From positions 1 through 50,196 of the forward strand of contig JAAWAD010000044.1 of assembly GCA_022791995.1 (NCBI GenBank): a stretch of DNA of 50,196 nucleotides, read 5' to 3'. Source of the stretch: Lawsonibacter sp. (GTDB lineage Bacteria; Bacillota; Clostridia; Oscillospirales; Oscillospiraceae). Below, in pieces: positions 16,795 to 38,919 of the stretch. Below the pieces are notes generated by a model that saw only the letters and a list, made by a program, of their open reading frames with translations, made no database searches and was not told the DNA's origin. The stretch's first letter is position 1. Every line of letters begins with the position of its first letter. The position numbers and the translations under genes are program-made.

Positions 16795-16829
16795 CAGAAC
16801 AACACACGATGATTGGAGGTTGTTACAAA

Positions 16830-18569
16830 ATGACACAAGAGCTGAAGTATGTATCCCCGGAAGAAGACGTTTCCCTCGTTCGGATTGACCAGGTGTACGA
16901 ATCTCTGCGCTTTAACGACTATTTGGCGCAAAACGGAATTGGAGAGATTGTCGATAATTCCATTGAAGCCAGGGCCGCCAATATTGAGGTGAGATTTACG
17001 GTAGAAAAGGCGCAAAAAACAGGGAAAAAGAAAGGATCAAACAAAATTACAGAGATTGCAGTGATTGATGACGGCATTGGCATGGACGCCGGCACTGTCC
17101 ACAGGTGCCTTGTGTTAGGGGAGTCTATACGTGTGTCAAAAGATGGCCGGCGGGGAATTGGGCGGTTCGGTGTTGGAATGACGTTGGGCGGCATATCATT
17201 GGCAAGGCGGATGGAGGTTTTCTCAAGGACACATGGGAACGACTGGTTTCTTTATACCTTCGTTGATTTGGACGACATTCAGCAGAGAAGGCTGAACTGC
17301 GTTCCCGTCCCCATTCCCCGCGAACCGCCAAAGGAGTATGGGGAACTGCTGAAGGATTCCAGTGGCACAATCGTAATTTTGAAAGATTGTGACCGTGTCA
17401 ATGGAGACCTGGAAGGGCTGTCCAATTATCTTGGCCGGACTTATAGAAAGTTTATTGAACGTGGGATTAAAATTAAATTAAACGGCGAGCTGGTGTATTT
17501 GCATGACCCCCTTTATCTGTCTGGCCCGACCGTATTTGATAGCCAGAAGCTCAAAGAGAAAGGCATAGGAGACCCCAAAGCCACACTTCTTGGGGAAAAT
17601 CGGATTTCATTGGATATTCCTGATTCACCCGGAAAGACAGCCGATGTTGTCATCCGTATGTCACTGCTCCCGAAGGAGTGGCGCATGGAGGCGGGAGCAG
17701 GCGGCGGCGCGGAAGCGAAGAAACGCAAAATTGACCAAAATGAAGGGGTTTCAATTTTGCGAGCGGACAGAGAGGTCCGGTATGCGCATATTCCCTACAT
17801 TACCGGAAAGAGGGGCGTTGCTCGGCCGCTTGATATCGACCGGTGGTGGGGGTGTGAAATATCCTTTCCCCCGGAACTGGACAGTTACTTTCAAATCAAG
17901 TATATAAAACGTGGCGCAGAGCCTGTTCCGTCCCTGCGGAATCAAATTCGGGAGGTGATTTCCGCAACCGTGAAAACGGCTCGCAGCATAATACGGGAGG
18001 ATTGGGCGAAAGAACAGGCCGCCAGGGAAGCAAAAACCGGCTTTTTTGAAAAGGCGGAAAAAGCAATGGCGAGCGCCGAGTGGAATTTGCCCCAAGGCAG
18101 GCAGGGGAAAAATTTGACGGCAAAAGAGAATGAGACCAAGCTGGATGCCCTGGCCTCTGCCGCACTGGGGGCGGAGAAGAATAATTCGGATCAAAAGGAG
18201 CAGAAAAAAACGGAGATTCGGGAAAAGCCTTACTCGATTGAGCTTGTCTCCAATTCCGAAACCATTCTTTTTGAAACCGTGCATTTGCTGGACAATATTG
18301 TAATTCAGTTAAATGTAAACCATCCATTCTATGAAAAAATATTGCAGCCGCTGTGCGGGAATTTTGAGGAAGATGCGGAAGAAGGCCTCGCCTCCCAACA
18401 GTTCAGGCAAGATGTGAAAAATGCGGTTTTACTCCTGCTGTTCTCCTATGCAAAGGCGGAGTCCATGTTTGAGGATCATCAAGGGTGGCTTGCGAATCTG
18501 CGCACGTTCTGGGGGGTGGCCCTGAAAAGCGCGTTAAACGAGTATGACCGGAAAGACAGCCCGTCCTAA
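16830..18569 (+). CDS. GHKL (Hsp90/MORC-like) ATPase, defence-associated
   Basis: A 579-residue protein with an N-terminal GHKL ATPase domain: the N box NGIGEIVDNSIEA (E39, D42, N43), VIDDGIGM (D81, G82, G84) and the lid glycines GIGRFGVGM at 109-117. The middle part (residues 150-390) resembles an S5-like transducer and the C-terminal third is helical and charged. The ATG at 16830 follows GGAGG; the ATG at 16809 lacks one. GHKL ATPases work as ATP-driven clamps; what this one binds is unknown. It faces the BREX operon tail-to-tail and shares its terminator. A role in defence is inferred only from this position. Confidence 0.75.
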   Translation: MTQELKYVSPEEDVSLVRIDQVYESLRFNDYLAQNGIGEIVDNSIEARAANIEVRFTVEKAQKTGKKKGSNKITEIAVIDDGIGMDAGTVHRCLVLGESIRVSKDGRRGIGRFGVGMTLGGISLARRMEVFSRTHGNDWFLYTFVDLDDIQQRRLNCVPVPIPREPPKEYGELLKDSSGTIVILKDCDRVNGDLEGLSNYLGRTYRKFIERGIKIKLNGELVYLHDPLYLSGPTVFDSQKLKEKGIGDPKATLLGENRISLDIPDSPGKTADVVIRMSLLPKEWRMEAGAGGGAEAKKRKIDQNEGVSILRADREVRYAHIPYITGKRGVARPLDIDRWWGCEISFPPELDSYFQIKYIKRGAEPVPSLRNQIREVISATVKTARSIIREDWAKEQAAREAKTGFFEKAEKAMASAEWNLPQGRQGKNLTAKENETKLDALASAALGAEKNNSDQKEQKKTEIREKPYSIELVSNSETILFETVHLLDNIVIQLNVNHPFYEKILQPLCGNFEEDAEEGLASQQFRQDVKNAVLLLLFSYAKAESMFEDHQGWLANLRTFWGVALKSALNEYDRKDSPS

Positions 18570-18620: not shown

Positions 18621-19757
18621 TTATCCCTGGTTATCCTTAATTTTCCTGTAGGCGCTACAGACTGCCTTTACAAGCGGTTGGACGTCCTCCGATGTATTGT
18701 AGCGGCCATAGGAGATCCGAATGGCCGATTTGGCCTGTGATTCTGTCTGTCCCAAGGCGAGGAGCACATGGGATGGGGCGCCATTTCCTGCGGTGCAGGC
18801 AGAGCTGGTAGATACGCAAATCCCTTTCAAATCCAGCAGGTGCATCAGGGATTCCCCGGAAACTCCATCAAATCCAAGGTTGACGGTACCCGGCAGACGA
18901 ACGGAATCCCCTCCGTTGACCCGGACCGTGGGGATGACGCTTCGAATGCTGTCAATGGTTTCCTGTACCATCGCCCTTAAACGTTCCGCTTCTCTGTCCA
19001 TAATTTCCACGCTCTCTGTAATGGCGCAGCCTGCGGATACGATTCCCGCTGTGTTTTCTGTACCTGCGCGGAGGGCCTGCTCCTGTTCGCCGCCATAGAT
19101 CAAAGGCGACAGCGGCACTCCATTCCGTTTATACAGAGCACCGGTTCCCTTTGCGCCATAGAACTTGTGGGCAGAGATGGACAGAAAATCCACACCCAGA
19201 TCCAAAACACAAACAGGAATATGGCCGACCGCCTGAACCGCGTCGCTGTGAAACAGGATGCCTGTTCCCTTCAGAAACCGCCCGATTTCCTCAATCGGCT
19301 GAATGGTGCCAAGCTCGTTGTTGGCCAGCATAATAGACACCAGTTTTGTATGCGGCCGGAGCGCTGCTTTTAAATCCGCGGGGTTTACCCGCCCATTTGC
19401 GTCCACTGGCAGGTAGGTCAGCTCTGCGCCGTGCGCCTCCAGCATACGGCAGGTGTTCAGAACAGCGGAATGTTCAATGGTGGAGGTAATAATATGCACA
19501 GGTGTGTTTTGGTGTATGACACTCTGCAAAACCCAGTTATTTGCTTCGGAACCGCCAGAGGTAAAGATGATTTCGGACGACTCTGCGCCGATTGCCGCCG
19601 CAATCTGACGCCGTGCCTGTGCAATCCCGTGTCGGGCCTGCACTCCCAGGGAGTATTGACTGGACGGGTTTCCATACTGCGCCTGTAAAAATGGAAGCAT
19701 TTCTTTGAGTGCGCCATCGGATATCCGGGTCGTTGCAGCATTGTCAGCATAAATCAC
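18621..19757 (-). CDS. Cysteine desulfurase (NifS/IscS/DndA-like)
   Basis: A 378-residue PLP enzyme that takes sulfur from L-cysteine as a persulfide and releases alanine. Key sites: MIYADNAATTR at the start, IIFTSGGSEANNW, the active-site lysine in SISAHKFYGAKGTG (K198) and the catalytic cysteine in STSSACTAG (C321) in a short flexible loop, as in NifS-like enzymes and DndA. It is the last gene of the BREX-type operon, 12 bases after the zinc-ribbon gene. No iscU, thiI or mnmA gene lies nearby, so the context points to sulfur supply for BrxP. A housekeeping role in Fe-S or tRNA thiolation is the alternative. Confidence 0.9.
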   Translation of the reverse strand: MIYADNAATTRISDGALKEMLPFLQAQYGNPSSQYSLGVQARHGIAQARRQIAAAIGAESSEIIFTSGGSEANNWVLQSVIHQNTPVHIITSTIEHSAVLNTCRMLEAHGAELTYLPVDANGRVNPADLKAALRPHTKLVSIMLANNELGTIQPIEEIGRFLKGTGILFHSDAVQAVGHIPVCVLDLGVDFLSISAHKFYGAKGTGALYKRNGVPLSPLIYGGEQEQALRAGTENTAGIVSAGCAITESVEIMDREAERLRAMVQETIDSIRSVIPTVRVNGGDSVRLPGTVNLGFDGVSGESLMHLLDLKGICVSTSSACTAGNGAPSHVLLALGQTESQAKSAIRISYGRYNTSEDVQPLVKAVCSAYRKIKDNQG

Positions 19758-19769
19758 AGGTCCATCTCC

Positions 19770-19970
19770 TCAAAACAATTTGCAGCCCTGCTCTTTAAAC
19801 TCCTCCACTTTGGCTAGGAGAAATTCGGTATCAACCTCCAGGTATTCCGCAAGGCAGTCCAGGCAGTAAAACCGCTGCGTGTCCTTATCCAGAAGCTTTT
19901 TGGCCAGCCCGATTTCGTGCCGGCTCAGATTTTCCTTGCCGCAGAAGTAACAGTTTTTTTTCCTGACCAC
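19770..19970 (-). CDS. Small zinc-ribbon-like protein
   Basis: A 66-residue protein with CYFCGKE near the start and CLDCLAEYLEV in the middle: two CxxC pairs 26 residues apart that could hold one zinc or accept a persulfide. The C-terminal third is a charged helix ending in QGCKLF with another cysteine. It sits between brxL (two-base gap) and the cysteine desulfurase, so it is translated with them. I do not recognise the family. A desulfurase partner or sulfur relay is a guess based only on position and cysteine content. Confidence 0.7.
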   Translation of the reverse strand: MVRKKNCYFCGKENLSRHEIGLAKKLLDKDTQRFYCLDCLAEYLEVDTEFLLAKVEEFKEQGCKLF

Positions 19971-19972
19971 AG

Positions 19973-21469
19973 CTACTGCGCTCCCTCTATATTTGATCTG
20001 ACACGGAATACAGGGAGATCCTTTCCCTGGTATTCGATATCCAACAGGCCCAGCTGATATTTGATGGTATCCCGCATGTTCCTTGCACGATCCAGACAGT
20101 ACCGCTTGAATTCACGGACAGGAAGATCGCCTGCACTCCGAACATGAGGGAAAAGCAGCTTCAAGTATGCGGTTGTAATACGTTTCACTGCCTCAGTATC
20201 GCGTGTATCCGCCGATTCTGGAACCTCAACCAGTTCATCCACAACGGCGCGATAACTCATATCCTCCCGAAGCTCGTGCATGATGGAGGAGAAGTATTCC
20301 GAATTGAGAGCCCAACCGGAAATTTTGAGATCGTCGTTCATTCGTGGGATATTCCAGCCCTTGATAAAACCATGGAAGCGCTCGATTAAGGCGGACTCAT
20401 GGAAAACAGAGGGAAGCTCCTCGAACATATTCCCAAATCCATCTTCGTCCATCAGCTCTTTCCTGATATTCCCACAGAGGATAACCCCCGCTTCAGCCGT
20501 TCCCTCGTAGCTGCCAACCGTGAAAATTCCTGATTCAAGGTAGCCCTTCAGCGCGGCTCGCATCTCATCCACGTTTGTAAAGGAAACCGTCTGGACCTCA
20601 TCCAGCACAACGAAATCATGGCCGGAGACCAGTCCCTCAGCCCGTTTGCTCTGATCGTAGAACATTTTCGCACGGCTCATCACGCCCCCGCTGGAGAGCC
20701 AGCCAAACCGGCTGACACGGCCAAACAGATAGGATTTGCCCGTTCCCTTCGGCGCCAGCTCAATCAAATTCAAACGCTTTTCTACAAACGGCAGCAGTCT
20801 GGTCAGCATCGTGAGCTTCTTCTCCTCGTCCCCCAGGTACCCCTTCGCGTTATAGTCCACAGCGCCAAGGAGCACATCCAACCATTCCGCGGTGGTAAAC
20901 TCCCGCCTTACGTCTTTAAAATATTCCAAATCAATCGTATACGGGCAAAAGGGATGGAAAGCGGTCAGTTTTATTTTGCCGTGTCCTGCTTCTCTGGCTC
21001 TGCCGGCGGAAGGCTCCGCGCCATAACCGGAGCAATGGTCAGGCGGGCGATAGCCGATTTCAACCATTCCCCATGTCTCGCGGCTGTGCAGCAGGTCCTC
21101 CTTACAGGCCTGCCACACGGTGTCCTCGATGATGGTATCTCGGCTGGACAGTCCAAAATCAGGCAGAGAAAAAGACACTTCGCCGGTTTTGATATCAATG
21201 TTGATCGAAATTTTCGCCAAAAACTTAACCCGCTCGTGCTCCACGACCACCCGGTTTTTGATTGCGGTCCAGTCGTCCTTCCGCGGCAGATAGACCCGGA
21301 TGAAGCGGGCCAGCTCATCCGGGTCGAAACGGCCCGCCTCATCCTCAAATTTTTTCAGAAGCCAGTCGCGCATGAAGGATGGCAGGCTTAAAGCGGAGAA
21401 AAAATTGCTTTTCTGCAAATCCTTATATACGACCATCTCATCAAAACAGTTTCGCAGCTTCTCAATCAT
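19973..21469 (-). CDS. brxL: BREX protein BrxL (AAA+ Lon-like ATPase)
   Basis: A 498-residue AAA+ protein conserved in BREX types 1 and 4. Recognised by Walker A APKGTGKSYLF (239-249), Walker B DFVVLDEVQTVSF (about 285-297) and the family-specific stretch FHESALIERFHGFIKGW (about 345-361). The N-terminal 200 residues match the BrxL DNA-binding region. The Lon protease tail of longer homologues is missing, so proteolysis is unlikely; the family includes such short forms. BrxL multimers are known to bind DNA in type 1 systems. ATG at 21469 is chosen because AGAGG lies eight bases ahead; a GTG at 21478 is possible. Confidence 0.9.
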   Translation of the reverse strand: MIEKLRNCFDEMVVYKDLQKSNFFSALSLPSFMRDWLLKKFEDEAGRFDPDELARFIRVYLPRKDDWTAIKNRVVVEHERVKFLAKISINIDIKTGEVSFSLPDFGLSSRDTIIEDTVWQACKEDLLHSRETWGMVEIGYRPPDHCSGYGAEPSAGRAREAGHGKIKLTAFHPFCPYTIDLEYFKDVRREFTTAEWLDVLLGAVDYNAKGYLGDEEKKLTMLTRLLPFVEKRLNLIELAPKGTGKSYLFGRVSRFGWLSSGGVMSRAKMFYDQSKRAEGLVSGHDFVVLDEVQTVSFTNVDEMRAALKGYLESGIFTVGSYEGTAEAGVILCGNIRKELMDEDGFGNMFEELPSVFHESALIERFHGFIKGWNIPRMNDDLKISGWALNSEYFSSIMHELREDMSYRAVVDELVEVPESADTRDTEAVKRITTAYLKLLFPHVRSAGDLPVREFKRYCLDRARNMRDTIKYQLGLLDIEYQGKDLPVFRVRSNIEGAQ

Positions 21470-21481
21470 AGGCGGCACCTC

Positions 21482-23722
21482 TTAAAACAACTCATCAAAA
21501 GCATCGTTTACCTTGGCGCTTTTTCCCTGCACGTGTATCGCAACCTTTCCAATCAGCTTGTCCCCTGCATAGACATCCGCAGGATAACAGCCGGCCCGCT
21601 TGATATCCGGGAGAGACACGTGATAATGGTTTTCATCCACTTGCAGTGCCGGATAGGACGTCCCGTTTCGCAGCAGAGAGACATTTTTCACGGCAGCATT
21701 CAGAAACAGCGTAATTTCTGTGCCGGTGCGGAAATCTGCAACCACTTCTTCCTCTGCCAGCTGAACAAGAATGCTGCTGTCACTCAGTGAAAGCTCAATG
21801 ATGGGAATCACAGCCTCCTCCAGGGTGGCGCCTCCGTGAACTTCTACATTCGCCCCGCGGCTGCCCTTGAAGCGCCCATAATCTGCAAGCACAAGATAAC
21901 CGTTCTCCTCCGCAGCAAAGGGCAGGTCGCAGGGTGTAAACGCTTTGCAGCAGCGCCCGGAATGTTTGCCGGGCGTGTCGCTGTCATACTTCTCCTCCTT
22001 GCGCCGCAAAACCGCAAGCCTGGAGGCGCCGTGGTCGCTGACAATCAGAAATCGTTTGCAGCGTCTGTACGCCAGCTCTGCCGCCGCCCGCTCCATCACC
22101 TCCGTGATGACCTTGAGTTCGGCTGCAAGGTGGATGGGGAGTTGATTGTTTTCAAAATTGTACCCCCCGTTCTCATGGTGCTTGATATCATCCAAATCCC
22201 CGTTTTTTCGCTTTTGCCCAGGCCAGGAATCAAAGAAATCGCGGTTCATAGAAGTGATGGTCGGCAGCTCTGCGCGTGCAATCGAGACAGAAATGGCCAA
22301 TCCCTTCTCCTGCGCCAAAAAATCAATGAGACTTAGGTACTCCACACCAAGCGCATCGACCCAGTAAAGAAAGGTCTCTTCCTTTTCCAGGCGCTCCAAA
22401 ATATCGTTGCGCGTTGGCAGCCGGTTAAAGCACCGCTGAAGCGCAAGCGCATCGACCCGTTCCAAAAAATCGGGTTCCAGTCGGTTCAGGACCTTTTGCC
22501 GCTTATAGGAATCAAAATAGTCTGTCAGCAATTCCGCAAGGTCCTGGCACTTGAAGGTGTATTTCTTTAGATAAGCCACCAGCGCCGGGTAGATGGTTTC
22601 AAGCTCAGGAAGCAGGCCGTTGTCCGTAATCCAAGCAATGACCTCTTCCCGCTCGGCCTTTGTGCGGTCTGTCAGCTTGTAAATACTCTCAGAAATCACC
22701 CTGCGGTTATTTACAACAAAGCTGGCCGCGTCTGACTCCGGCACTTTTTCAAGCAGCTTCCTGCGCTCTTCGCAAAAGCGTGAGAAATTTGGATCGGTAT
22801 GGGGGATATCAATAATCGTATCCAGGAGGTTGCAGGGAAAATCCTCAAAGCAAGAGGTCCTCTCAAGGACAAGCTTTAAATAGCGGTTCTCCAGCCGGTT
22901 TCGTTCGTGGTTCAGATAGAGAAAGCAAATCCAGCTTTGGTAGCTATGCCCGGCAATGGCGGGGTAGAAATCCGACGGATCAAATTGGCTGAACCCATAC
23001 GCTTCAAACACAGCGTCAAGGGAATCGGAGGCATCTCTCAATTCCGACAGCAGCGCCGTCCACTGCGCATCCGTTCCCAGCGTGCGAGGCAGAGAAAAAT
23101 CATGGGCAAAAAACCGAATCCCCTCATAGGCGTCGGCGATGTGGTGAATTGTGAACAGTGAGTGCTCAAAATTAACCGTGGACGCAAAGATAAGATTCCC
23201 GCTTGCGCCTGCCTCCAACGCCTGAAGCAAAGACTTGACGCCCGGCTCTGAAGAAAACGCTTGAGGGGAGGGCATATGCGTAAAGGACAAATTGCATTCG
23301 CCCCGGTCAATGACGCTATATCTGTGGCTGTCAAAGCGGGGGTCGCTGGTCAGATCTGCAAGTCGCGACAGAAGTCCCCGCAGAATCAAGACGACCTTTT
23401 TGCTGCCAATCCTGGCATTTTTCAGCCTTGACAAGGTACGTTTCGCCTCTGCTGCACCGCACAGCGCAAGAAATTCACCAAGGCCTGTAACCGCCAGCCG
23501 CTTACCAGCCGCGGCAGGGTCAGAGGATTCGATTTCGTCAAGCAGTTCATCCAGGTCAGGCACTTTGTCTTCACCAGCGCAAAATCCACTCAGAGGGAGA
23601 AGCTGCAACCCTCGGATCTGTACCTCGTCAATGACTGCCTGATACTGTCCATCGCTTACAAACAGAAAATAGGGAGAGCTGGCTTTGGAAGTCAGATAGT
23701 TTTTAATCCAATCAGATGGCAT
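21482..23722 (-). CDS. pglZ: BREX alkaline-phosphatase-like protein PglZ
   Basis: A 746-residue protein defining BREX systems. The C-terminal half is a PglZ alkaline phosphatase-superfamily domain: the metal-binding Asp in FLYWVDALGVEY (D456), the nucleophile-position Thr in AELPTITSMNRDF (about T490) and FLIVSDHGASRLA (D563, H564), with a downstream ADYGRFKGSR and VEVHGGATLEEAVIPII histidine. In other BREX types PglZ is required for modification and defence and forms a complex with the methylase; here no pglX exists. ATG at 23722 follows AGGGG and starts five bases after the brxC stop. Confidence 0.92.
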   Translation of the reverse strand: MPSDWIKNYLTSKASSPYFLFVSDGQYQAVIDEVQIRGLQLLPLSGFCAGEDKVPDLDELLDEIESSDPAAAGKRLAVTGLGEFLALCGAAEAKRTLSRLKNARIGSKKVVLILRGLLSRLADLTSDPRFDSHRYSVIDRGECNLSFTHMPSPQAFSSEPGVKSLLQALEAGASGNLIFASTVNFEHSLFTIHHIADAYEGIRFFAHDFSLPRTLGTDAQWTALLSELRDASDSLDAVFEAYGFSQFDPSDFYPAIAGHSYQSWICFLYLNHERNRLENRYLKLVLERTSCFEDFPCNLLDTIIDIPHTDPNFSRFCEERRKLLEKVPESDAASFVVNNRRVISESIYKLTDRTKAEREEVIAWITDNGLLPELETIYPALVAYLKKYTFKCQDLAELLTDYFDSYKRQKVLNRLEPDFLERVDALALQRCFNRLPTRNDILERLEKEETFLYWVDALGVEYLSLIDFLAQEKGLAISVSIARAELPTITSMNRDFFDSWPGQKRKNGDLDDIKHHENGGYNFENNQLPIHLAAELKVITEVMERAAAELAYRRCKRFLIVSDHGASRLAVLRRKEEKYDSDTPGKHSGRCCKAFTPCDLPFAAEENGYLVLADYGRFKGSRGANVEVHGGATLEEAVIPIIELSLSDSSILVQLAEEEVVADFRTGTEITLFLNAAVKNVSLLRNGTSYPALQVDENHYHVSLPDIKRAGCYPADVYAGDKLIGKVAIHVQGKSAKVNDAFDELF

Positions 23723-23727
23723 TGACC

Positions 23728-26700
23728 TCACCCCTCATTTCCCAGGATTTCCATTCCTACCGTTATACTGTCCTTAATCAGCCGCTTTAGATATTGTTTT
23801 AACTGAGCATCATCCATTTTGTCAATTTTCAGCAGAACCCGGTCACTTCCTCCTGCGTTATACTCAGCGTCTGCCAGCTGTTGAATCTTTGCCTTCACAC
23901 TTGGGTGATCCCGCCAATCATAGGCATCCACAGGAAGCCGTTCCAGTGCGTCCCGCACCTGATTCAAATCGGAAAGGACGGGAACATAGATTCCAATCAT
24001 ATCGCGCTTGAATGCCTCGGTGTGCTTGGCCGGATCGGAAAGCGCTTCAAACAGGTTTGTCCTCTGGAGGTATTCAAGTGCACTTCTGACCGCCTCATCA
24101 TCGGTGCTTCCGATGCGATTTAGCGTGTCAAACGCCATTTTCGCCTGCTGGAATTCCCCTGGCGGCACAATACACAAAATTGGCGTGCGATAGCGGCTTG
24201 ACCATTCACGGGGATCTTTTGTGTTGGTTTTTTCCCTCCACAGCGAGAACAGTTGAGATTTCAGCTGTTCCTTGCGAAATTCCTCCGCAGCTGTCTTAAC
24301 TTTCTGGTTGCACACTGTCTTCGGCAGTTCAAAAAGTCCCATTCCAACCCTGGTTTTTATAACAGCGATGTCATCTGGGCTGAGAGCCTCCAGGTATGGC
24401 TGGTAAACTCTTCCGAACATCTGCTGGTCCTCCATCAGCGCTCGGATTTCTCCGCCATGGGCCAGGAGGTCCTCGTGCAGTGTCTGCACCTGCTCGGGCA
24501 AAATATCCGTCTGCTTATAAAGCGTCAAAAGCGTATTCAGAACTGCTGCCAGGGAGGGATACTGTTGCCGCAGTTCCTCCCAGGAAATGCCGATAAACCT
24601 GAGCCGTTCCCGCCATTCCTGATAGGCCTCATGCAAAGAATGCGTCTGTGCAGCCAGGATAAGATTGCTGTCCTTGACAACCTGGTACTCTGCCATGAGC
24701 TTGCGGATCTCTTCCTCGCCTGTTTGCTTGTCCCACAGGCAGGAATGCTTGATGCTGAATATCCGGCGGATATCCGCCAGCACACTATCCTCTACGCCGA
24801 TAAACGACGCAAGCTCGAGAACCTGCCCATTTTCAAAGCTGCGGAGATATTCCCACATGCCGTCCTGGCAGTTCCTGCTGGTTACAAGCGCTGCCACACG
24901 ACCGCCCAGGCTGCTGTTTTTGCGTGCAATCTCACCGATTTCAATCGCCTTTTTGTGGGCGGTATTTCCCTCCGTCTGCACAAGCTCAATGTATTTTTGT
25001 ACAATTTCAAAGGCACCGGAGGTATCCATATTTTTCAAGCACCATACCGGAAAGTTAAGGCCGCGCATCTTTTTGGTCACTTCGATTGCCGCCTGCCCCG
25101 CAGAAGAGCAGCTGTTCGCCGGTATGCTCCACACCTTTTCCGTCAAGTCATAAAAAGCCATCTCGTCCGCGGTCATCTTGACAATATAAGTGGGTTTCGG
25201 CTTTTTTCCGATATGATTTGAAATCATTTCGGCCAGCTTGTCCGGGGTCATCGGTTCGTGTCCGCCAGAGGAGTCACTGTACCGGAAGGGATCCTGGCGA
25301 TACTCTTTCAGCAGAAAACCTGTGAGGAAAGAGGAGAGGTTGCAGGGTGCAAAACCATATTCCCTTTCCAGGAAACTGTAGATTTCTTCAATGGAAATCT
25401 GCCCGTCACGGGCAAAGGCCGCTTCAATCAGTTGATTCACGCCTACCTTAATCCGAGAAACCGGCAAGGACTTCATCTGTGAGGTTTCCCAATAATTTTC
25501 CACGTTCCAAACATCGGGAAACAGAGTCTTTTCAATTCCAACCATAACGCCGCTTGTGGACTGCAAAATGCCGGCCTTTGCGGACTGCTTCAAAGCGGGA
25601 GTGATCTTGAGCTGGTTCTCAGACAGCCCTCTGGCAAAGTCAAAGGCATAACAAAACTTTTTTGTTACCCGCGTTTGCAGAATGCTTGCAACTCCCTGGG
25701 CGTTCCCCAGCTTCTCTCCCTCTGGGTTATCGTAGGTGTATACGATAAAAGCCCCGTTATAGATTCGATTTTTCCAGTCCTGATCCAAAACATGCTTCGC
25801 TTTGTCTGCTCTTTCCCGTGACGGTTCATTTTGGTTCCCTTGGTAATAGAGGGCCATAGCAGAAAAATCCACATATTGCTCAAACGCACTTGTCCCAAGG
25901 GGGGTCGAGAGGGCGTCAAGAAAGAGGATATCCCGATACCGTTCCTCTGCGGCAGCGGCCTTTACCATTTTACGGAAGCTGCTGGCTTCATCTTCATCTT
26001 TCGCAAAGGCAATAACCGCATGGAAATGCCATACTGAGGGTTTTTCACAGAGGCTATTGATGGTGCGTGTAAAATCTATGATGGTAACAGGGGTAATTTT
26101 TCCTGTGCCAGGCTCCGTTTCAAAACGCAGACGCAGTGGCGCGGTCAGTGGCAATACAGACGCCAAGCCCCCTTCTGTCACGAGCTTTGCAGTTGTACAG
26201 TTTTCCCGTACATCTTTTTTATGGCGGTCAATTTTCGCCTGGTCGCCTGCAAGGATTGCCGCCGCATAGGTGTAACGTCCTCCACCAAGCGGATTCGAGA
26301 CCAAAATCCCACGGTTTTTTAACCCTTTTGCAATATTTTCTGCCTTCGTGCTTCCCTCCAGATTGGGAATTCCTTCAAATACATAACTCAGGTTCTGCCC
26401 GCTTGGCTTGAGGAGATCAACCGTCCCGCCCAGCCGCTGGTCAATGGCCTGCATGATGAGCACAGCTTTTAAGACGGCCTTTTCGTCTTCCCGCAGGTTC
26501 TGCTGCTGGGGGTATGTATCTAAAATCAGTCGGATATCCGGCGTTAAATCATCCCGCCCCTTTTCATAAAAAAAGTTCCAGAGCATATCAACCGTCAGCA
26601 GAGGATGGGCGTCAAACGGTCCGGTGTGTTCAATAAACCACTGGAATGCCTGCACGTCATCCGCGTTCGACGACTTGATAAAATCAAACATGCTCCGCTG

Positions 26701-27882
26701 GTTGGACTTAAAAGCGGCCGCAATATTTTTCAGCAGAAACGCCGCCATCGGGTGAAGGGGCATGATGTTTTTGATCACCTGCGGATCGGTAATTTTTGCG
26801 GCGTTCATCACCTGGGTCCGGGCATTTTTGACCCGTTCATTCAAATCATCCGCCAAAACATTCCAATCCTGTTTGGCGGCTTCCTTTTCTTTGAAGGCGT
26901 GACCAATCAGATCAAAGGCAATATTATCCGGCAGCAGAATTTCGATCCGAACAAAGCGGTCTCTCAGTTTTTTCCATTCCTTGTCATTTTCACTGAAACC
27001 GTGCCCCATCTCGTGGGCAATCACGATAAAATAGAAAGGTTTGCTCTGTACCAAGGAAATAATTTTTTGAAATTCTGTCAAGCTTTCACGATTGTTTTTG
27101 AAATAATCAGAAAACTCATCCCAGATAAAGACGAGTTTGATGTCATTCTGCTCGATAATATCCGTCAGCCACGTGATGAGCCTGTCCGAGTCAATGGTTA
27201 AAGCCGTGATGCCCTCTTTATTTGCGAGGCGGAAAATGTGCTCCACCAAATTTTTCACTTCTCCGCCCTTGCGGAGCTTGTTTAAAATTTCATCGGCATT
27301 GGATTGTGCGAACAGCGCCCGCCATTCCTTGTCAGGGTTTTGCAGAAGGCTGTTCATCATCAGCTTATGATCGCTGTCCTCCAGCCAGGTGATGATGCTT
27401 TCCTTTAGTGTATTCTCCCCAAGATACGGAATATTTTGCCGCACAAGGGCCTCTTTCACACTTTCCTGTACTGCAAAAAAGAAATCGCGGGGGGACATGA
27501 TCCCACCGGCCGCATAGCGGTGGGCGACCACAATGCCCTTGCGTTTGTGTCCGATCAGCTTCTCACGAAGATCCACCTTGGACTTTAATGCGTCATAGCG
27601 GTCCCAATAGGCATAAAACTCCTCTTCCGGTACCTCAAGCAGCTTGCGTAAGGCAAAGGCACACTGCGACTTTCCGACTCCATATGGCCCCTCAATCCAC
27701 AGAGTCCGGCCGCCATTCTGGCGTGAGAGCGCATGTTCCATCTCGGTCAGCATTTCAAGAAATGTGGTATGGGGATAGGTTGTCTCCCAGCGGGCCCCTG
27801 CATCAATGGCCGCATCGTCAATACAGGGGAAATAGGTTTCGTCAAAGTCGAAGTACTCCTTGTAGTTGTTGGAATCAAGCAT
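23728..27882 (-). CDS. brxC: BREX ATPase BrxC/PglY
   Basis: A 1384-residue P-loop ATPase, the largest BREX component. Walker A GPYGVGKSQ at 65-73 and Walker B LVFIWDEFSDYF around 250-261 are clear, and the DUF499-like body follows. The C-terminal 500 residues are helical. The role in BREX is ATP-driven and not fully understood. The ATG at 27882 lies inside the end of brxP (8-base overlap), so the two are translationally coupled; the longer frame from 28008 would overlap brxP by over 100 bases and lacks a site. Confidence 0.92.
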   Translation of the reverse strand: MLDSNNYKEYFDFDETYFPCIDDAAIDAGARWETTYPHTTFLEMLTEMEHALSRQNGGRTLWIEGPYGVGKSQCAFALRKLLEVPEEEFYAYWDRYDALKSKVDLREKLIGHKRKGIVVAHRYAAGGIMSPRDFFFAVQESVKEALVRQNIPYLGENTLKESIITWLEDSDHKLMMNSLLQNPDKEWRALFAQSNADEILNKLRKGGEVKNLVEHIFRLANKEGITALTIDSDRLITWLTDIIEQNDIKLVFIWDEFSDYFKNNRESLTEFQKIISLVQSKPFYFIVIAHEMGHGFSENDKEWKKLRDRFVRIEILLPDNIAFDLIGHAFKEKEAAKQDWNVLADDLNERVKNARTQVMNAAKITDPQVIKNIMPLHPMAAFLLKNIAAAFKSNQRSMFDFIKSSNADDVQAFQWFIEHTGPFDAHPLLTVDMLWNFFYEKGRDDLTPDIRLILDTYPQQQNLREDEKAVLKAVLIMQAIDQRLGGTVDLLKPSGQNLSYVFEGIPNLEGSTKAENIAKGLKNRGILVSNPLGGGRYTYAAAILAGDQAKIDRHKKDVRENCTTAKLVTEGGLASVLPLTAPLRLRFETEPGTGKITPVTIIDFTRTINSLCEKPSVWHFHAVIAFAKDEDEASSFRKMVKAAAAEERYRDILFLDALSTPLGTSAFEQYVDFSAMALYYQGNQNEPSRERADKAKHVLDQDWKNRIYNGAFIVYTYDNPEGEKLGNAQGVASILQTRVTKKFCYAFDFARGLSENQLKITPALKQSAKAGILQSTSGVMVGIEKTLFPDVWNVENYWETSQMKSLPVSRIKVGVNQLIEAAFARDGQISIEEIYSFLEREYGFAPCNLSSFLTGFLLKEYRQDPFRYSDSSGGHEPMTPDKLAEMISNHIGKKPKPTYIVKMTADEMAFYDLTEKVWSIPANSCSSAGQAAIEVTKKMRGLNFPVWCLKNMDTSGAFEIVQKYIELVQTEGNTAHKKAIEIGEIARKNSSLGGRVAALVTSRNCQDGMWEYLRSFENGQVLELASFIGVEDSVLADIRRIFSIKHSCLWDKQTGEEEIRKLMAEYQVVKDSNLILAAQTHSLHEAYQEWRERLRFIGISWEELRQQYPSLAAVLNTLLTLYKQTDILPEQVQTLHEDLLAHGGEIRALMEDQQMFGRVYQPYLEALSPDDIAVIKTRVGMGLFELPKTVCNQKVKTAAEEFRKEQLKSQLFSLWREKTNTKDPREWSSRYRTPILCIVPPGEFQQAKMAFDTLNRIGSTDDEAVRSALEYLQRTNLFEALSDPAKHTEAFKRDMIGIYVPVLSDLNQVRDALERLPVDAYDWRDHPSVKAKIQQLADAEYNAGGSDRVLLKIDKMDDAQLKQYLKRLIKDSITVGMEILGNEG

Positions 27883-30262
27883 TCTGGCCGTCCCCCTCAA
27901 ATAAAGCGAGCACATCGGCGGAGGTCCGGTCCTCAGCCAGTGTAATTTTCTCCAGGTCGTGTGTAAAAGAAGCAGAGATGAACTCAGGGTACCTTGCTGA
28001 GAGGCCAAGCAGAATGGGGATCATGTCCTCCCGGTTCAAACCAAAAATGCGGGTGGGGCTGATACCGTCCCGGTCAATGCTGTCATTGAGCAGGGTGGCC
28101 AAGGTAAATTCCTTATAGTCGTTGCACTCCTCCGCAAATTTGAACAGACCATACAGGATCACACGGGGGTCACTAACGGTGCATTTGGTTCGGACAAGCT
28201 CCCCTGCCTCTGTCACAAAGCCCCAATGCAGGCTTGTACCAAGCGGAAGCTGAACTAATTTTCCAAACGCGCTGTAAACAAATTTGACAATGTTCTGACT
28301 GCTGTTGCTCTCCAGGAGCATCGAAATAACCGTATCACGCGGATAAACTTCTTGTACATCAAGGTGCGTTATATACCATTTGATCTGCGGGTTACTGGCA
28401 ACAAGGTTAATCAGAAGTATTCCCCATGCAGTTTCCGTTTCCCAGCCCAAGCTGCAAATCAGGTCTGTGAGAGGGGAAACGGACTTTTTTTCGGATAACC
28501 CCGCGTCTCTCAAAAAGCGCTTGAATGTTTTCAGTTGATTTGGTCCAAGCCCATGCATCTCCCAAAAACCATCTCTTTCGCTGAAAAAGCGTTCAAACCA
28601 GTCGGTTTTAGGTAAAACAGAATCAAAACAGTTGATTGACATATTTTTCTCCTCAACAGGTATTCTTAAGGAATGGAACGCGTGACACCCGCCTTCAATA
28701 TTATGGCATTGCAGACAATGGGTACAATCTGTAATGTGTACAGTGTCGTCAAATTTCAAACGGCCGGCGCTGCAATTTGCCTGACATACCCTGCATTTCA
28801 GGCAATACGCAGATTTGCGAAAAACTTGCTTGAACAGCTTTCCGCGGACTGGATTTTCTTTCAGATAACGTTCGGGCAGTTTCACGATATAGCCATCTTT
28901 TTTATTTTCGACTGTGAACGGGATATCTTCAGCATCCGCAAGCGTTTTGATCCACTCATGCCAGTCGGTTTTTGGGTTCGTTACCGTAATGGTGAGGATC
29001 CCGTTCTTTATTTTTTCAGAATAATTCACTTCATTTCCGATTAAGTCCCGGCCGCTTCTCCGGGAGACCCAACCGCCGCCAGAGATATAGGAATCGACGC
29101 CAAAATTTCGGCCGCTGGATTTTTCAATGAGGCCAATGTACAGTTCAAGCTCTTTCGGGTAAACAGCCTGTTTGATATAATCCGATTTTCTGACCGACAT
29201 CGGACAAAAGAGACAGCCAACCCTTGAGTTTCCCTTTTTATATGCCGCGTTGATTGGAACATCATTTGCATATATGTAAAGCCATATTTCAGCGGATGTC
29301 CACTCTAATATGGAATTGTGGCTGAGCTGTCCCCTGATTTTTTTCCCCTCGTTAAAATAGTCATATTCTGCTCTGGCTGCGCTCTCATGGGCCCTGACCC
29401 CAACAAAAGCCAATCCAGAATAGTCCGCTTTTCCAGTAATCTCCCTTAATCTCAGGGTCTGCGGCGCACCTTTAAGCACAGAGCAGCACCACCGCAAGGT
29501 ACGCGACGGCGGGCCAAACATTGCCCATGACTCTTTGGGTGTCAGATGTGATTTCGCAACATAAAACGGGATATCTTCCTCTATGCACTGCCGGCGTGTG
29601 ATGCTTACAATTTCATTGGTATCTGGAAATTCCATTCCAGTGTCGCCGAAGACCACAACATAACTTCCTTTCGGCAGGGACTTCTTCACCAGATCCAGCA
29701 GAACGCAGCTGTCTTTCCCGCCGGAAAAGGCCACATGGAAGAGATCCAGCTTATCCCGGTATTTGGAATAGGTCTGAATGATTTTTTTTACGGTGGTCTG
29801 TTCAATAATCTCCAGAATATCCTGGTTTGCCTCCACCATCGCACCAAGATCGACGGGACGGAGAGGAGTTCCGTCCGGTTCAGGCAGCGCATAGGTGCAG
29901 AGAATTCCGTTTCCATCGAAATCCACATTGTGGAATGACCTGGTCTGTGCCGGAATCCATACCTGCTTCCATTCCTGCTTGTCCAAGGTTGTATCACAGG
30001 CCAGCGCGGGCACCTGAATTTCGGGGGCGGTATATACATTTCCGCCCTTTAGCTTTGCGACCAACGTTCCAAAATAGTAGTAATTGTTTGCCTCTGCCCA
30101 CATATAGGGGGCATCCGTTTGTTTGTCGTACTCCCAGTATTGGTCGAAACCGAGTATGTCCATCTCCGGCGCATAAACGGGACGGGGTTCTTTGGAAACG
30201 CCTGTAGGGGACAGGTTTAAAAGGAGACCACCCGTCGTTTCATCATAGGTATACGAATACAT
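27875..30262 (-). CDS. brxP: BREX type 4 PAPS-reductase-like protein BrxP
   Basis: A 795-residue protein that replaces the PglX methylase in type 4 BREX. An N-terminal domain of about 165 residues precedes a PAPS reductase/ATP-pyrophosphatase domain with PP-loop FSGGKDSCVLLDL (S180-S185) and FGDTGMEFPDT. Cysteine pairs C259-C260 and C350/C353 resemble the Fe-S ligands of DndC-type proteins. A ferredoxin-like cluster follows, CLKCRVCQANC (487-497) and CTHCLQC (513-519), then a helical C-terminal third. DndC uses the same PP-loop chemistry for DNA phosphorothioation, so sulfur modification is the leading hypothesis. The start at 30262 follows AGAGGAACG. Confidence 0.9.
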   Translation of the reverse strand: MYSYTYDETTGGLLLNLSPTGVSKEPRPVYAPEMDILGFDQYWEYDKQTDAPYMWAEANNYYYFGTLVAKLKGGNVYTAPEIQVPALACDTTLDKQEWKQVWIPAQTRSFHNVDFDGNGILCTYALPEPDGTPLRPVDLGAMVEANQDILEIIEQTTVKKIIQTYSKYRDKLDLFHVAFSGGKDSCVLLDLVKKSLPKGSYVVVFGDTGMEFPDTNEIVSITRRQCIEEDIPFYVAKSHLTPKESWAMFGPPSRTLRWCCSVLKGAPQTLRLREITGKADYSGLAFVGVRAHESAARAEYDYFNEGKKIRGQLSHNSILEWTSAEIWLYIYANDVPINAAYKKGNSRVGCLFCPMSVRKSDYIKQAVYPKELELYIGLIEKSSGRNFGVDSYISGGGWVSRRSGRDLIGNEVNYSEKIKNGILTITVTNPKTDWHEWIKTLADAEDIPFTVENKKDGYIVKLPERYLKENPVRGKLFKQVFRKSAYCLKCRVCQANCSAGRLKFDDTVHITDCTHCLQCHNIEGGCHAFHSLRIPVEEKNMSINCFDSVLPKTDWFERFFSERDGFWEMHGLGPNQLKTFKRFLRDAGLSEKKSVSPLTDLICSLGWETETAWGILLINLVASNPQIKWYITHLDVQEVYPRDTVISMLLESNSSQNIVKFVYSAFGKLVQLPLGTSLHWGFVTEAGELVRTKCTVSDPRVILYGLFKFAEECNDYKEFTLATLLNDSIDRDGISPTRIFGLNREDMIPILLGLSARYPEFISASFTHDLEKITLAEDRTSADVLALFEGDGQNA

Positions 30263-30264
30263 TG

Positions 30265-31728
30265 TTACGTTCCTCTTTCATAAAGTGCTCGAGCCCTTTC
30301 GATAATTTCTCCCACGGAAGCGTTTGTTTTTCTGCCAATATACCCATTTTTATACAAAAACGCACAGACCTGGGAATTCTCCAGCGGGACGCCGGAGGCT
30401 GCCACGGCGTCTGCCATAATCTCTACATAACGCATGGTACAGCGCCGGCGGATAACCGCGCCAGCGTTTTTGGAGTTCATTGCCGGGGCGTCAAAGCGGA
30501 ATGTTTGGCTGAACCTGCGGCAGTAGCTCTCCAAAAGGAACAGGTTCCAGGACTGACCACAGTCGGGGAGTATACCAAAAGCGGAAAATGATTGCAGCGG
30601 CAAATATTCTCCAGGGATCATCTTGTCCATCATTCTGTCAGTTTTCTCGACATCAAAGTGAACATATTGCTCTGCGACAAAGCAATCTTTACCGGTGCGG
30701 ACCATGACGGCATGTCCAGCCTTGAGCGCGATTTGGTGCTTTGTTTCACCAATCAAATCTTTTTCATACTGCAAAAGGTCTTTCAGGGAGCATTGCTCAA
30801 GTGTTCGGCAATACGCCTTCATAATTTCCACCGCGTCAAATGTGTCCCCCCGCCGGACAATGATTTTCCCGTTTCGGTCGTATTGATCCTGGAGGCAGGT
30901 GCGGTAAACCGCGCTGTAGACAGCGGAAATCGACAGTGTGTCGTTTTGTGCCCGAACCTCCTCCAGGGGGAGCTCAAGAAATGTTGTGTATCCGTCTATG
31001 CTGCATTTTTCCGCCGCAGCGGCTTGAATCGCTTCCCGGTCCTCTGCACGGATTTCGACTCGGCTCAGGTGGGAAAAGGTTTCCGCGCTGTTCCATATGA
31101 AATCATGATTCTGCGCAAGAAACCCTTTGATTCGCTCCAGTGGGATATAGGGCAGTCTCTCAGAGAGTTCTGTATAGGTTAACAGTATGTCATTGCCCCA
31201 GACACGTAAAATTTCGCGCTCTAAGACATCGGCAATCGACGCCTGCACAGTTCCAAAATAGGTTCGGGTGAAGAAAAAATGTGGGAATAAATCAAGGACA
31301 ATTTTTGTAAGGATGTCCTCGGAAACCACATTTTCCTTGAACAGCCAGCTTTCATTTTTTTTGTAAAACTCGTCATAAAAAATAACCTGGGCGCCGCCGG
31401 AAAAGTAGGACGCAGCAGTGTCCCGTATACTTTTCCTGGCTCCGCTAGAGATAGCGTAAACCTTTTCGTCACATATAATTCCGCAATCCAGGATATGCGC
31501 CCTCAGCTCTTCATCGGAACAAGGAATCTCCATTTCCATATCCTCTGTGGCAAAGGAACGAAAACGCCTCAACTCAATGGGTGAATGGAGACGGAATCCA
31601 TTTGAAAAATGTGTAAATAAAATGGTTTCTAATTTTGAGCAGAGCGCTTCATCTTGCCCGTGAGACGTTGTATCGGCGAGCAAATCAAAGCCGGGAAGTT
31701 TGGCTGCCCTGGTGATTTCCGGTTCCAT
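30265..31728 (-). CDS. Uncharacterised first gene of the BREX type 4 operon
   Basis: A 487-residue soluble protein of unknown function, translated two bases ahead of brxP. The sequence is helix-rich and shows winged-helix-like stretches (LLTYTELSERLPYIPLERIK near 200; LENSQVCAFLYKNGYIGRKT near the C terminus). A conserved-looking aromatic segment, LDLFPHFFFTRTYFGTVQAS, lies in the middle. No catalytic motif, membrane segment or signal peptide is visible. The start at 31728 follows AGGGGGCAG; the longer frame from 31797 has no site. Likely roles are DNA recognition or operon regulation, inferred only from its HTH-like parts and its place. Confidence 0.75.
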   Translation of the reverse strand: MEPEITRAAKLPGFDLLADTTSHGQDEALCSKLETILFTHFSNGFRLHSPIELRRFRSFATEDMEMEIPCSDEELRAHILDCGIICDEKVYAISSGARKSIRDTAASYFSGGAQVIFYDEFYKKNESWLFKENVVSEDILTKIVLDLFPHFFFTRTYFGTVQASIADVLEREILRVWGNDILLTYTELSERLPYIPLERIKGFLAQNHDFIWNSAETFSHLSRVEIRAEDREAIQAAAAEKCSIDGYTTFLELPLEEVRAQNDTLSISAVYSAVYRTCLQDQYDRNGKIIVRRGDTFDAVEIMKAYCRTLEQCSLKDLLQYEKDLIGETKHQIALKAGHAVMVRTGKDCFVAEQYVHFDVEKTDRMMDKMIPGEYLPLQSFSAFGILPDCGQSWNLFLLESYCRRFSQTFRFDAPAMNSKNAGAVIRRRCTMRYVEIMADAVAASGVPLENSQVCAFLYKNGYIGRKTNASVGEIIERARALYERGT

Positions 31729-32756: not shown

Positions 32757-33939
32757 TTATGCCCCGCCTTGGGGCGTTGCTGCGGGCGTCAGCTCCCACA
32801 CATGGTCTGTGCGGTATTTTCCGTCGCTGTAGCGGCTGGAGCCCGATTCAAACAGCACCAGGATTTTGCCCTCCCGGCTCAGGCACAGCCCCTCTGTCAT
32901 GGGCATGGCGGTAATATTTCCAACCTGTCTCTGGCTGTCCAGCACATAGGCGGGAATGCTGTGTCCAGCGACATCCAATGTGAGGTCAGGCGTCTCCTCC
33001 TGGGAGTACTGGTAGGACAGCAGGGCGGAGTTGGCCCCCCGGCCAGTAGGATTGGCTCAGCCAGATTGTGATATTCTGACGGTCCGCCAGTGCCGTCACC
33101 CCCTGGATTTTATCCGGGGCAACCAGGGTAAGGACAGGGACGGGGTACTTTTCTCCATCGGGAACGGCAATTTTTCCGCCTTCTGGCACCGCATAGCCCA
33201 GGATGTAGCAGCCGGCCTCGCCGTCCGCCGTGGGAGTGGTGAAATTCATCTCCTTGGAGAGGTTGTAGTCCCCCTTTAGATGGTAGAAATTCCCTACCCA
33301 CAGGGTTCCCAAAGAGTAATTCAGAAAGGAGGGGGAAACCGGCTGGGAAATGATCTCCTCCACAGGAATGTCGTGGCTTCCCTCGGTGGGCAGGCGGTCC
33401 ATGGGGAGGACGGCAATGCTGTAGCTGCCGTCGTTGTCCAGTTTAGCGGACACATAGAGGTACCCCTCTGCGGCGGCAATGCCGCCCACGTGGCTGGTGA
33501 AGGGTGTGCCATCCGGCTGGAAGAGGTAGTACTCCGCAGCGATTTCTCCTGTGGTCAGGTCCACCGCGCTGATGGCGGAGGGCGTATCCTGGATCGCATA
33601 GGAGGTGATATAAACCAGGCCGGTGTTCTCGCTGAAGGTGATTCCCTGGGGAGTCATGGCCTGATTCAGGCCCGGGATGAGAAAGCTGGATTCTGCCACA
33701 GCAAGGAAATCAGCAAACTCCTCCCGTTCACGAAACTTCTCGTTGCGGACGCTGCCCTCCTGAGTCATGCGGAAGGCAGCGGGCGGCGTGTTGGCGTCCT
33801 GCGAGGATCCCTGGGAAGAGGAGACGCTTGCCGCCCCTTCCACGGGCAGGCTGCTGGCCGCCCCACCGGGCTGTGGAGAACAGCTGGAAAGGGTCAGGGA
33901 AAGAAGCACGGCAGCGGCCACTATGTAACGCAGCTTCAA
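32757..33939 (-). pseudogene. Secreted lipoprotein with a frameshift in a C6 (G6) run
   Basis: TTG start at 33939 behind AGGAGGAA, then a lipoprotein signal (VAAAVLLSLTLSSC). The body reads like a beta-propeller of unknown role (GLVYITSYAIQDTPSAISAV, GGIAAAEGYLYVSAKLDNDG). At 33035-33040 a run of six G on the coding strand shifts the frame after SYWPG and stops it near residue 317. With five G the protein would continue ANSALLSYQYSQEE to HVWELTPAAT at 32757, about 394 residues in all. The homopolymer suggests either a recent mutation, phase variation or a sequencing error. It may be a healthy gene in the real genome. Confidence 0.65.
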
Positions 33940-34047
33940 GGTAATTCCTCCTATTACAATAAGATTTACGGGTTAAGGCACGGCAGCCGTGTCTTTTTCC
34001 GCATTGTTGCCAAAGCTGTTAGAATGAGCGCGTATTGGCCTGACGTA

Positions 34048-35814: not shown

Positions 35815-36482
35815 CCGATCACCTCCCCGCTGTCCTGGGCGGGAACTTCCAGTACGCCGTCTTGGAGCACCGCCCGGAAAAACAAAGGAACAATATTCTC
35901 TGGGTCGGAGTAATCCAAATCCCAGAGCATGTACCCCAGGTCCCGCACCCCCTTTAGCTCCTCTGGACAGGGCGGCAGGGCCTGGCACGCCTTGAACTGC
36001 GCGGGAAATTCCCGACAGCCAAAATAGGGCTGGCTGTAAAACTGCCCCCGCTTGATCCGCCGCTTGATGATGTCCTGAAATTTTCCGGCATTGTCACCGT
36101 CCGCCGCTTGCGCGGTTATGTCAAAGTGGGCGTCGATGACATAGCGCACATCCCGCAGCAGCATGGCGGCCCGCTGCTGGATATCCTGGGAGGTGACGAG
36201 ATACAGCTCTCCTTTTCCTCGCTCCATTACCGTCCGGGCCAACCGGGCGCTGACGGTGGACTTTACTTCGTTGCGCCGCAGGTTGGTAAAACGGATGGGG
36301 GCGCAGACGTGGATGCGGTCAATAGACCAGCGCAGGCCAGGGTGCCAGTATATGGATTCCAGCAACCCCCGGGCGGCGGAGGGCGTCATCACATCATAGC
36401 TGACCCGCTCCGTTTTCATTTCTGGACGGGTGAAACAGGCGTAGTCCCCCCAGACCTCCAATGAAATTGGCACAGCGTTCAC
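35811..36482 (-). CDS. cas5c: Type I-C CRISPR protein Cas5
   Basis: A 223-residue Cas5d/Cas5c protein, which in type I-C is the pre-crRNA-processing endonuclease and 5'-handle binder. Recognised by ISLEVWGDYACFTRPEMKTE, RVSYDVMTPSAARGLLESIY and FYSQPYFGCREFPAQF. GTG at 36482 is too close to its AAGGGA site; GTG at 36473, eight bases from it, is the better start (220 residues). Sits between cas3 and cas8c in standard order. Confidence 0.93.
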   Translation of the reverse strand: MNAVPISLEVWGDYACFTRPEMKTERVSYDVMTPSAARGLLESIYWHPGLRWSIDRIHVCAPIRFTNLRRNEVKSTVSARLARTVMERGKGELYLVTSQDIQQRAAMLLRDVRYVIDAHFDITAQAADGDNAGKFQDIIKRRIKRGQFYSQPYFGCREFPAQFKACQALPPCPEELKGVRDLGYMLWDLDYSDPENIVPLFFRAVLQDGVLEVPAQDSGEVIG

Positions 36483-36550
36483 TCCCTTCTGTTTTTTCCA
36501 TTATACCATACGCCATATCCTATAAACAGGACTATTTTCAAAAAAGCAAA

Positions 36551-38692: not shown

Positions 38693-38744
38693 TTGATTTC
38701 TCTCCTCTCAATTCATTTAACAGATAAGCATGATAAAAGCCGGG

Positions 38745-38808
38745 GGTCGCTTTCGCGCGCCCCGGCCAACGAACACCGCCCCGCAGAGCGGGTCGGGGCT
38801 TTTTCATA
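38745..38808. terminator. Paired GC-rich hairpins upstream of cas3
   Basis: GCCGGGG...CCCCGGC (about 38740-38766) and CCCGC/GCGGG (about 38780-38792) followed by CTTTTTC on the plus strand. The block looks like a terminator for plus-strand transcription, or a structural remnant of a mobile element. It is a single copy, not a CRISPR array. Confidence 0.4.
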
Positions 38809-38919
38809 GGTGGTCGGTTTTACCCTCTATCTACTGTCTTAGGTGCAAGAATGAAGAAAAACGGCGAGAAAACCGCCTAGTTTCAGCATTCCGCAAGGTG
38901 GCTGTCACAGAAAGTAGAA

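Follow-up and report, generated by a model that had tools for sequence, protein, structure and literature searches.

The contig JAAWAD010000044.1 of Lawsonibacter sp. (GenBank assembly GCA_022791995.1; the whole stretch of 50,196 nucleotides is called the window here) carries a seven-gene operon, and the question it raises is what the unnamed first gene, orf1, contributes to an operon whose other genes resemble those of a bacteriophage exclusion (BREX) system of type 4. Seven open genes, in the order orf1-brxP-brxC-pglZ-brxL-zinc-ribbon-desulfurase, were tightly packed on the minus strand between positions 18621 and 31728, with gaps of 2 nt between orf1 and brxP, 3 nt between pglZ and brxL, 2 nt between brxL and the zinc-ribbon gene, and 12 nt between the latter and the desulfurase gene, and with overlaps of 4 nt between brxC and pglZ and, given the brxC start at 27882, 8 nt between brxP and brxC. 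This packing and order, reported in a first-pass annotation of the same DNA, were confirmed from the coordinates of the open reading frames (ORFs). Sequence comparison indicated that Orf1 is inherited with the BREX core and is its fastest-changing part, and we consider it very probable that Orf1 is a core component, not a passing neighbor.

Profiles of PADLOC, Pfam, and NCBIfam named the family of five of the seven products, BrxP, BrxC, type 4 PglZ, BrxL, and the cysteine desulfurase, bearing out the earlier assignment to type 4 BREX; that identity is almost beyond doubt, and the operon, though a good example of the type, is an ordinary one. BrxP matched its PADLOC model at 3.5e-266 and Pfam PAPS_reduct at 5.1e-31, and both the PP-loop SGGKDS (residues 180–185) and the Fe-S-type cysteines already noted in the first-pass annotation were present, the eight cysteines at 487–526 each being at least 95% conserved in 76 BrxP sequences. 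Residues 553–787 of BrxP weakly matched the short PADLOC BrxP model PDLC02511 (1.6e-5); for DUF4007, which type 4 BREX has either fused to BrxP or as a separate protein, Pfam gave no match up to E=1. BrxC matched at E=0 (PDLC02485, 2003.8 bits) and also matched SspC (3.4e-24); its start was taken as the ATG at 27882 after the codon had been checked, the scanned BrxC protein having begun four residues earlier. PglZ (PADLOC 1.4e-242) scored 511 bits against a cut-off of 140 with the NCBIfam BREX-4 PglZ model NF033445, and BrxL (PADLOC 9.6e-225) scored 388 bits against a cut-off of 329 with TIGR02688; a Lon protease domain was not among the Pfam matches of BrxL. No methylase was found among the 18 window proteins to which the scan was limited (eight by PADLOC, Pfam, and NCBIfam, ten more by Pfam). 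The sole match to a PglX model, 13.9 bits against a cut-off of 500 in a neighboring HATPase protein, was at chance level, in agreement with the absence of PglX noted earlier.

For comparison we used a set of 96 loci, consisting of the best 80 of the 307 from a PglZ alignment, 15 further stretches, and the window; loci were picked by likeness to the window PglZ, and their genes were found with iterated profiles. The 80 loci were spread over 17 named phyla (50 loci in Bacillota; two archaeal phyla; 3 loci with no phylum given). A search for the seven-gene order in other genomes, proposed in the first-pass annotation, found all seven genes in 50 of the 96 loci, many others being cut by contig ends, and in each of these 50 the genes stood in the same order on one strand, which excludes chance.

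An Orf1 match was found in 71 of the 79 loci with brxP, and in 69 of the 76 having at least 700 nt of upstream sequence. Two entries were redundant, because the contig of L046 is also that of L091 and the strains of L081 and L083 have the same Orf1 sequence; without L083 and L091, Orf1 preceded brxP in 67 of 74 loci. All 71 copies lay on the brxP strand, and 59 ended within -4 to +10 nt of brxP. Complete copies, with the split L065 copy left out, ranged from 479 to 1195 aa, that of the window being among the shortest. In a sample of 398 genomes of the phylum, a strong match to the Orf1 core (E<1e-30) was found in eight, seven of them beside type 4 PglZ on the same contig, while the contig of the eighth ended 175 nt after orf1; two further matches were weak. 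Type 4 PglZ exceeded its cut-off in 14 of the same genomes, seven with Orf1, six without, and one with broken contigs (G148), so that Orf1 was present at 7 of 13 type 4 loci. In a comparison of distance matrices from 48 loci, made with no correction for shared ancestry, Orf1 correlated at 0.90 with PglZ, 0.87 with BrxC, 0.78 with BrxP, and 0.74 with BrxL, and its mean pairwise identity of 0.30 was the lowest of the seven operon proteins.

The window Orf1 matched no Pfam, NCBIfam, PADLOC, or PHROG model, with Pfam searched up to E=1 and no sigma-70 region found within that limit, and PDB sequences searched with an Orf1 profile gave no match up to E=1. When 53 members of the Orf1 family were scanned with Pfam, four models matched, each in at most three members, the best being a SAM-like integrase N-terminal domain (4.7e-6). 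An AlphaFold2 model built on an alignment of 53 sequences reached a mean predicted local distance difference test score (pLDDT) of 90.8, and its secondary structure was read as about six repeated helix-helix-wing units; Orf1 is therefore predicted, from this model, to be a tandem winged-helix array. Residues 1–46 were unsure in the model, which fits a later start; the longest ORF of orf1 begins at 31797, upstream of the ATG at 31728. Searches with Foldseek and VIA-align gave arrays of winged helices as well as single ones (UFL1, SelB, ESCRT-II, Z-alpha), the first three being among the best Foldseek matches; no match sufficed to name a family. The most conserved stretch was 407–446 (F407, P411, W417, N418, S430, G446), and no catalytic motif was seen in the protein. 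A relationship of Orf1 to the C-terminal domain of BrxP was also considered and found no support (hhalign probability 2.4).

The seven loci with at least 700 nt upstream of brxP and no Orf1 match were L093, in which brxP was in a fragment on the other strand, and L041, L042, L043, L045, L048, and L053, which are also the six type 4 PglZ loci without Orf1 in the phylum sample. The HARE-HTH protein encoded in L053 is a relative of the long Orf1 proteins, matching the L113 one at 9.2e-35 by phmmer, but its match to the Orf1 profiles was faint; L041, L042, and L045 showed nothing evident. In L048, and also in L236, the first-gene slot was occupied by a complete sigma-70 factor, spanning regions 1.1 to 4 and located 28 nt before brxP in L048 and 27 nt before a brxP fragment in the decayed operon of L236. 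The L048 sigma factor showed 76% identity with that of L236 and 45% with its closest counterpart elsewhere in the L048 genome, and it therefore looks dedicated. In L043 a gene after brxL resembled the N-terminal part of the L048 sigma-70 factor, and the Orf1 of L044 itself carries Sigma70_r4. The decayed type 4 BREX of L236 (genome G382) had brxP and brxC in pieces, no pglZ match, a short brxL, and an intact zinc-ribbon gene.

Orf1-like proteins were also found outside BREX, in L177 and L178, which have pbeA and pbeC, L178 having dndB and dndC as well. L178, from a genome outside the phylum sample, gave a firm Orf1 match (5.5e-28; hhalign 98.5); it was found through this match and is no independent case. 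The gene directly before pbeA was then compared with the Orf1 profile in 21 of the 30 pbeA-positive phylum genomes, L177 included. L258 gave a firm match (2.6e-8; hhalign 82.7) and L257 a weak one (2.4e-4; hhalign 12.3), whereas L177, with a weak match in the genome-wide Orf1 search and an hhalign probability of 95.0, gave none in this search; the remaining 18 of the 21 loci showed no Orf1 match. The relatives in L178 and L258 carry RNA_pol_A_CTD and Sigma70_r4, and the L177 relative carries sigma region 4. In L256, matches to sigma and to the C-terminal domain of the RNA polymerase alpha subunit (alpha-CTD) were near the cut-offs, with no Orf1 link (hhalign 4.6). The gene before pbeA is not pbeB, because PbeB is a 66-aa protein (PMC6459918). 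At L176, a third locus, the Orf1 match was weak and no other BREX-profile match was seen, other phosphorothioate genes not having been scanned there.

What Orf1 does in the operon can be read in several ways. Defense islands mix genes, and orf1 was absent from 7 of the 76 loci and from 6 of the 13 in the phylum sample, as would be expected of a chance neighbor from the same island; the fixed position, spacing, and co-divergence of orf1, together with the location at type 4 BREX of seven of the eight strong homologues in 398 genomes, the eighth being cut off, make such an origin extremely unlikely. The main rival is a regulator. DndB is the regulator of dnd, and Orf1 might likewise be a dedicated transcription regulator of its operon, the sigma-70 factor sharing its slot doing the same job: orf1 is the first gene, its predicted fold is a winged helix, the slot holds a full sigma-70 factor in L048 and L236, that of L048 looking dedicated, and the L044 Orf1 carries Sigma70_r4. 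Orf1 nevertheless diverges in step with PglZ and BrxC, to about the degree seen between core subunits themselves, and in our judgment a regulator of 480–1200 aa with some six winged helices would be unusual and would be swapped more often. We regard this role as the less likely one, though far from negligible, and put the chance that Orf1 is a recognition or scaffold subunit and not a regulator at about even.

A third reading takes Orf1 as a transcription-derived module of the defense complex, whose polymerase-like contacts would let it engage invading DNA at promoters or at transcription bubbles. It is suggested by the alpha-CTD and sigma domains of the relatives before pbeA in L178 and L258, by the sigma factor in the same slot, and by PglW of type 2 BREX, which is described in the part of PMC12839542 covered as having three winged helices after an alpha-CTD-like domain. 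The window Orf1 itself, however, has no sigma or alpha-CTD domain by Pfam, and among the 21 pbeA loci only L258 is firm, with L257 and L177 weak and L256 unlinked, the L178 case not being independent; we consider this reading improbable. A broader version joins it to the core role, making Orf1 an unrecognized core subunit of type 4 BREX from a family grown from transcription-initiation proteins and shared with some Pbe phosphorothioate systems. Such a subunit would direct the sulfur mark or the attack toward particular DNA, which may be promoters or melted DNA; this version remains speculative and, on balance, doubtful.

The desulfurase fitted the PADLOC models of DndA (5e-135) and SspA (7.8e-135) equally, with 448 bits each. 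In NCBIfam, NifS (446 bits, cut-off 531) scored above DndA TIGR03235 (334 bits, cut-off 480) and neither equivalog cut-off was reached, a correction to the first-pass label of a NifS/DndA-like desulfurase. Against PDB sequences, mitochondrial enzymes (291 bits) and the IscS-type 1p3w (262) ranked above SspA (219) and DndA (208). A tree combined 60 copies linked to BREX with 46 unlinked ones, the latter from the genome of the window and the genomes of 26 of the 80 loci (40 of 41 off-locus matches fetched; 25 of 71 candidate unlinked rows dropped as BREX copies again or as shorter than 250 aa). The BREX label changed twice on this tree against a mean of 34.7 after shuffling, and the best BLAST match within the set was another BREX copy for all 60 BREX desulfurases. 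By these sequence relationships, the enzyme is a dedicated BREX lineage, not a housekeeping copy, and such lineages probably number two. The claim that the desulfurase is built into the operon is thereby upheld, no grouping with housekeeping copies, which the first-pass annotation had given as a refutation, having been seen.

Among the 78 loci whose sequence reached 1.7 kb or more beyond brxL, two copies left out, the desulfurase gene followed brxL in 56, and 18 had the zinc-ribbon gene and no desulfurase within 1.7 kb. Because of these 18 loci the linked desulfurase seems dispensable, and the earlier description of a complete sulfur-based BREX was overstated. Over 48 loci, uncorrected for shared ancestry, the distances of the desulfurase correlated at 0.31 with PglZ, 0.30 with BrxC, 0.28 with BrxP, 0.27 with BrxL, 0.43 with Orf1, and 0.38 with the zinc-ribbon protein, and this loose tracking of the core suggests exchange or repeated gain. 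That the enzyme serves as a dedicated sulfur donor we hold to be highly likely.

The 66-residue protein has cysteines 7, 10, 36, and 39 and an invariant C-terminal tail of the GCxLF type. It had no Pfam or NCBIfam match over a curated cut-off, no significant fold match (best Foldseek E 4.3), and no significant profile match to PDB sequences (best E 0.23). Its gene adjoined brxL in 72 of the 78 loci; in two of the six scored as lacking it (L054 and L120) a match was present, its ORF called too long and missed by the spacing rule. Strong matches (E<1e-20) occurred in 11 of the 398 phylum genomes, ten with type 4 PglZ and the eleventh the decayed BREX locus L236. Cys63 was invariant in 87 of 87 loci alongside the four zinc-type cysteines, and a protein that relays sulfur from the desulfurase to BrxP through this residue might be imagined, all the more since the gene keeps its place beside brxL in 18 loci with no linked desulfurase. 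Weaker paralogues in genomes G160, G233, G317, and G164, in loci where no BREX or desulfurase profile matched, nevertheless end in GCTLF, NCVLF, or NCALF, and the like tail is therefore a family trait; a sulfur-only role of Cys63 is weakened by these proteins, and a relay appears quite improbable. The paralogue loci with the like tail, L237, L238, L239, and L240, lie away from BREX, among genes that by eye resemble those of sugar hydrolases or esterases.

On the model published for phosphorothioate systems, sulfur would be taken from cysteine by the desulfurase and passed to BrxP, which would insert it into the DNA backbone; BrxC and DNA-binding parts may choose the sites, and PglZ, BrxL, and BrxC may attack DNA without the mark. 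We propose that Orf1 would act here as a core subunit whose winged-helix array docks on a BrxC/PglZ complex and reads DNA, either a site or a foreign state, and that a changing target may explain why it evolves fastest. The desulfurase would be a dedicated donor yet an exchangeable one, its place being open to other desulfurases of the cell. Type 4 BREX with Orf1 as a core recognition subunit and an exchangeable desulfurase donor is, as a whole, the best explanation, and we lean toward it with slight confidence. Should Orf1 prove to be a core subunit, work limited to brxPCZL may overlook restriction, regulation, or the choice of sites, and Orf1 would be a concrete candidate for the choice of DNA where the mark sits on the backbone. 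It is also a possible common part of the BREX and Pbe phosphorothioate systems; if the family is shared, two unrelated defense machineries would have one recognition module.

Table 1. Features of the window and of the loci compared with it (window positions unless a locus is named)
Feature	Position	Strand	Basis or remark
orf1, unnamed first gene; predicted tandem winged-helix protein	30265..31728	-	487 aa from ATG at 31728
brxP, PP-loop enzyme resembling PAPS reductase, with a C-terminal domain and 8 conserved cysteines of Fe-S type	27875..30262	-	PADLOC, Pfam
brxC, ATPase related to SspC	23728..27882	-	PADLOC; inferred start
pglZ, type 4	21482..23731	-	NCBIfam NF033445
brxL, BrxL_N and BrxL ATPase domain	19973..21478	-	Pfam PF20442, PF13337; TIGR02688
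Zinc-ribbon-like protein, 66 residues	19770..19970	-	Conserved place next to brxL; putative zinc binding
Cysteine desulfurase, NifS/IscS group, BREX-specific lineage	18621..19757	-	Profile matches and tree
HATPase_c_3 protein	16809-18569	+	
cas8c (Csd1), cas5, cas3	34048-38692	-	
Sigma-70 factor in first-gene slot	L048:16227-17708		Regions 1.1 to 4
Sigma-70 factor in first-gene slot	L236:1978-3423		Regions 1.1 to 4
Orf1-like protein directly before pbeA, RNA_pol_A_CTD and Sigma70_r4	L178:8598-11264		Pfam domains
Orf1-like protein directly before pbeA, RNA_pol_A_CTD and Sigma70_r4	L258:2639-6046		Pfam domains

The gene convergent with the operon encodes a HATPase_c_3 protein, faintly MzaB-like, with a homologue in one of the 95 other loci (L116, 2.3e-215), where it follows the type 4 BREX operon. 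On the other side lie the cas genes of a type I-C-like CRISPR system; beyond cas8c come a gene that by eye looks lipoprotein-like and one for a PilZ protein. No CRISPR repeats were found at 33900–42000, and the system looks truncated. The G+C content was 47–52% at about 16–33 kb of the window and 59–63% at 8–16 and 43–49 kb; the first 6 kb had 46–47% and the segment of 33–43 kb 54–57%. Since low G+C also occurs outside the operon region, composition alone is no proof of an acquired island.

A desulfurase gene and a small zinc-finger gene with type 4 BREX have already been reported in section 34 of PMC12839542, so that the main novelty claimed in the first-pass annotation was already in print; of the two parts it had called new, the zinc-ribbon protein is published there with the desulfurase, and the first gene is a real lead. 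Neither section 34 nor the other passages covered mention Orf1, the supplements and Yuan et al. (Nat Commun 2026) lying outside the search, and no description of it was found in print by literature searches and in passages of PMC12839542, PMC10853773, PMC11931770, PMC6459918, and PMC12707154. Inherited with the core, fastest-changing, and undescribed in this literature, orf1 deserves attention.

In the passages covered, brxPCZL is one of three known gene families making phosphorothioates (PMC11931770, citing Yuan et al.), and the gene lists for type 4 BREX found in two papers name brxPCZL. The window has all named components of this published phosphorothioate-based system, brxP-brxC-pglZ-brxL, and differs from it, as described there, by Orf1. 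By PADLOC, BrxC resembled SspC (3.4e-24), BrxP SspD (3.4e-11), and the desulfurase SspA (7.8e-135) of the SspABCD system, but the window has PglZ and BrxL, and its gene set and order are those of BREX. With DndABCDE it shares a desulfurase and a PAPS-reductase-like enzyme; BrxP, however, reached 29.5 bits against the DndC TIGR03183 cut-off of 290.4 and the desulfurase 334 against 480 for DndA, and no operon gene had a PADLOC match to DndD or DndE. PglW of type 2 BREX, in the part of PMC12839542 covered, is likewise a BREX protein with winged helices in series, a likeness by description, but kinase, nuclease, and iSTAND parts are described for it there. The phosphorothioate systems linked to PbeABCD, so far as the passages of PMC6459918 describe them, have other effector genes, and their Orf1 relatives are longer, some with alpha-CTD and sigma region 4, yet a few of these loci have a distant relative of Orf1 directly before pbeA.

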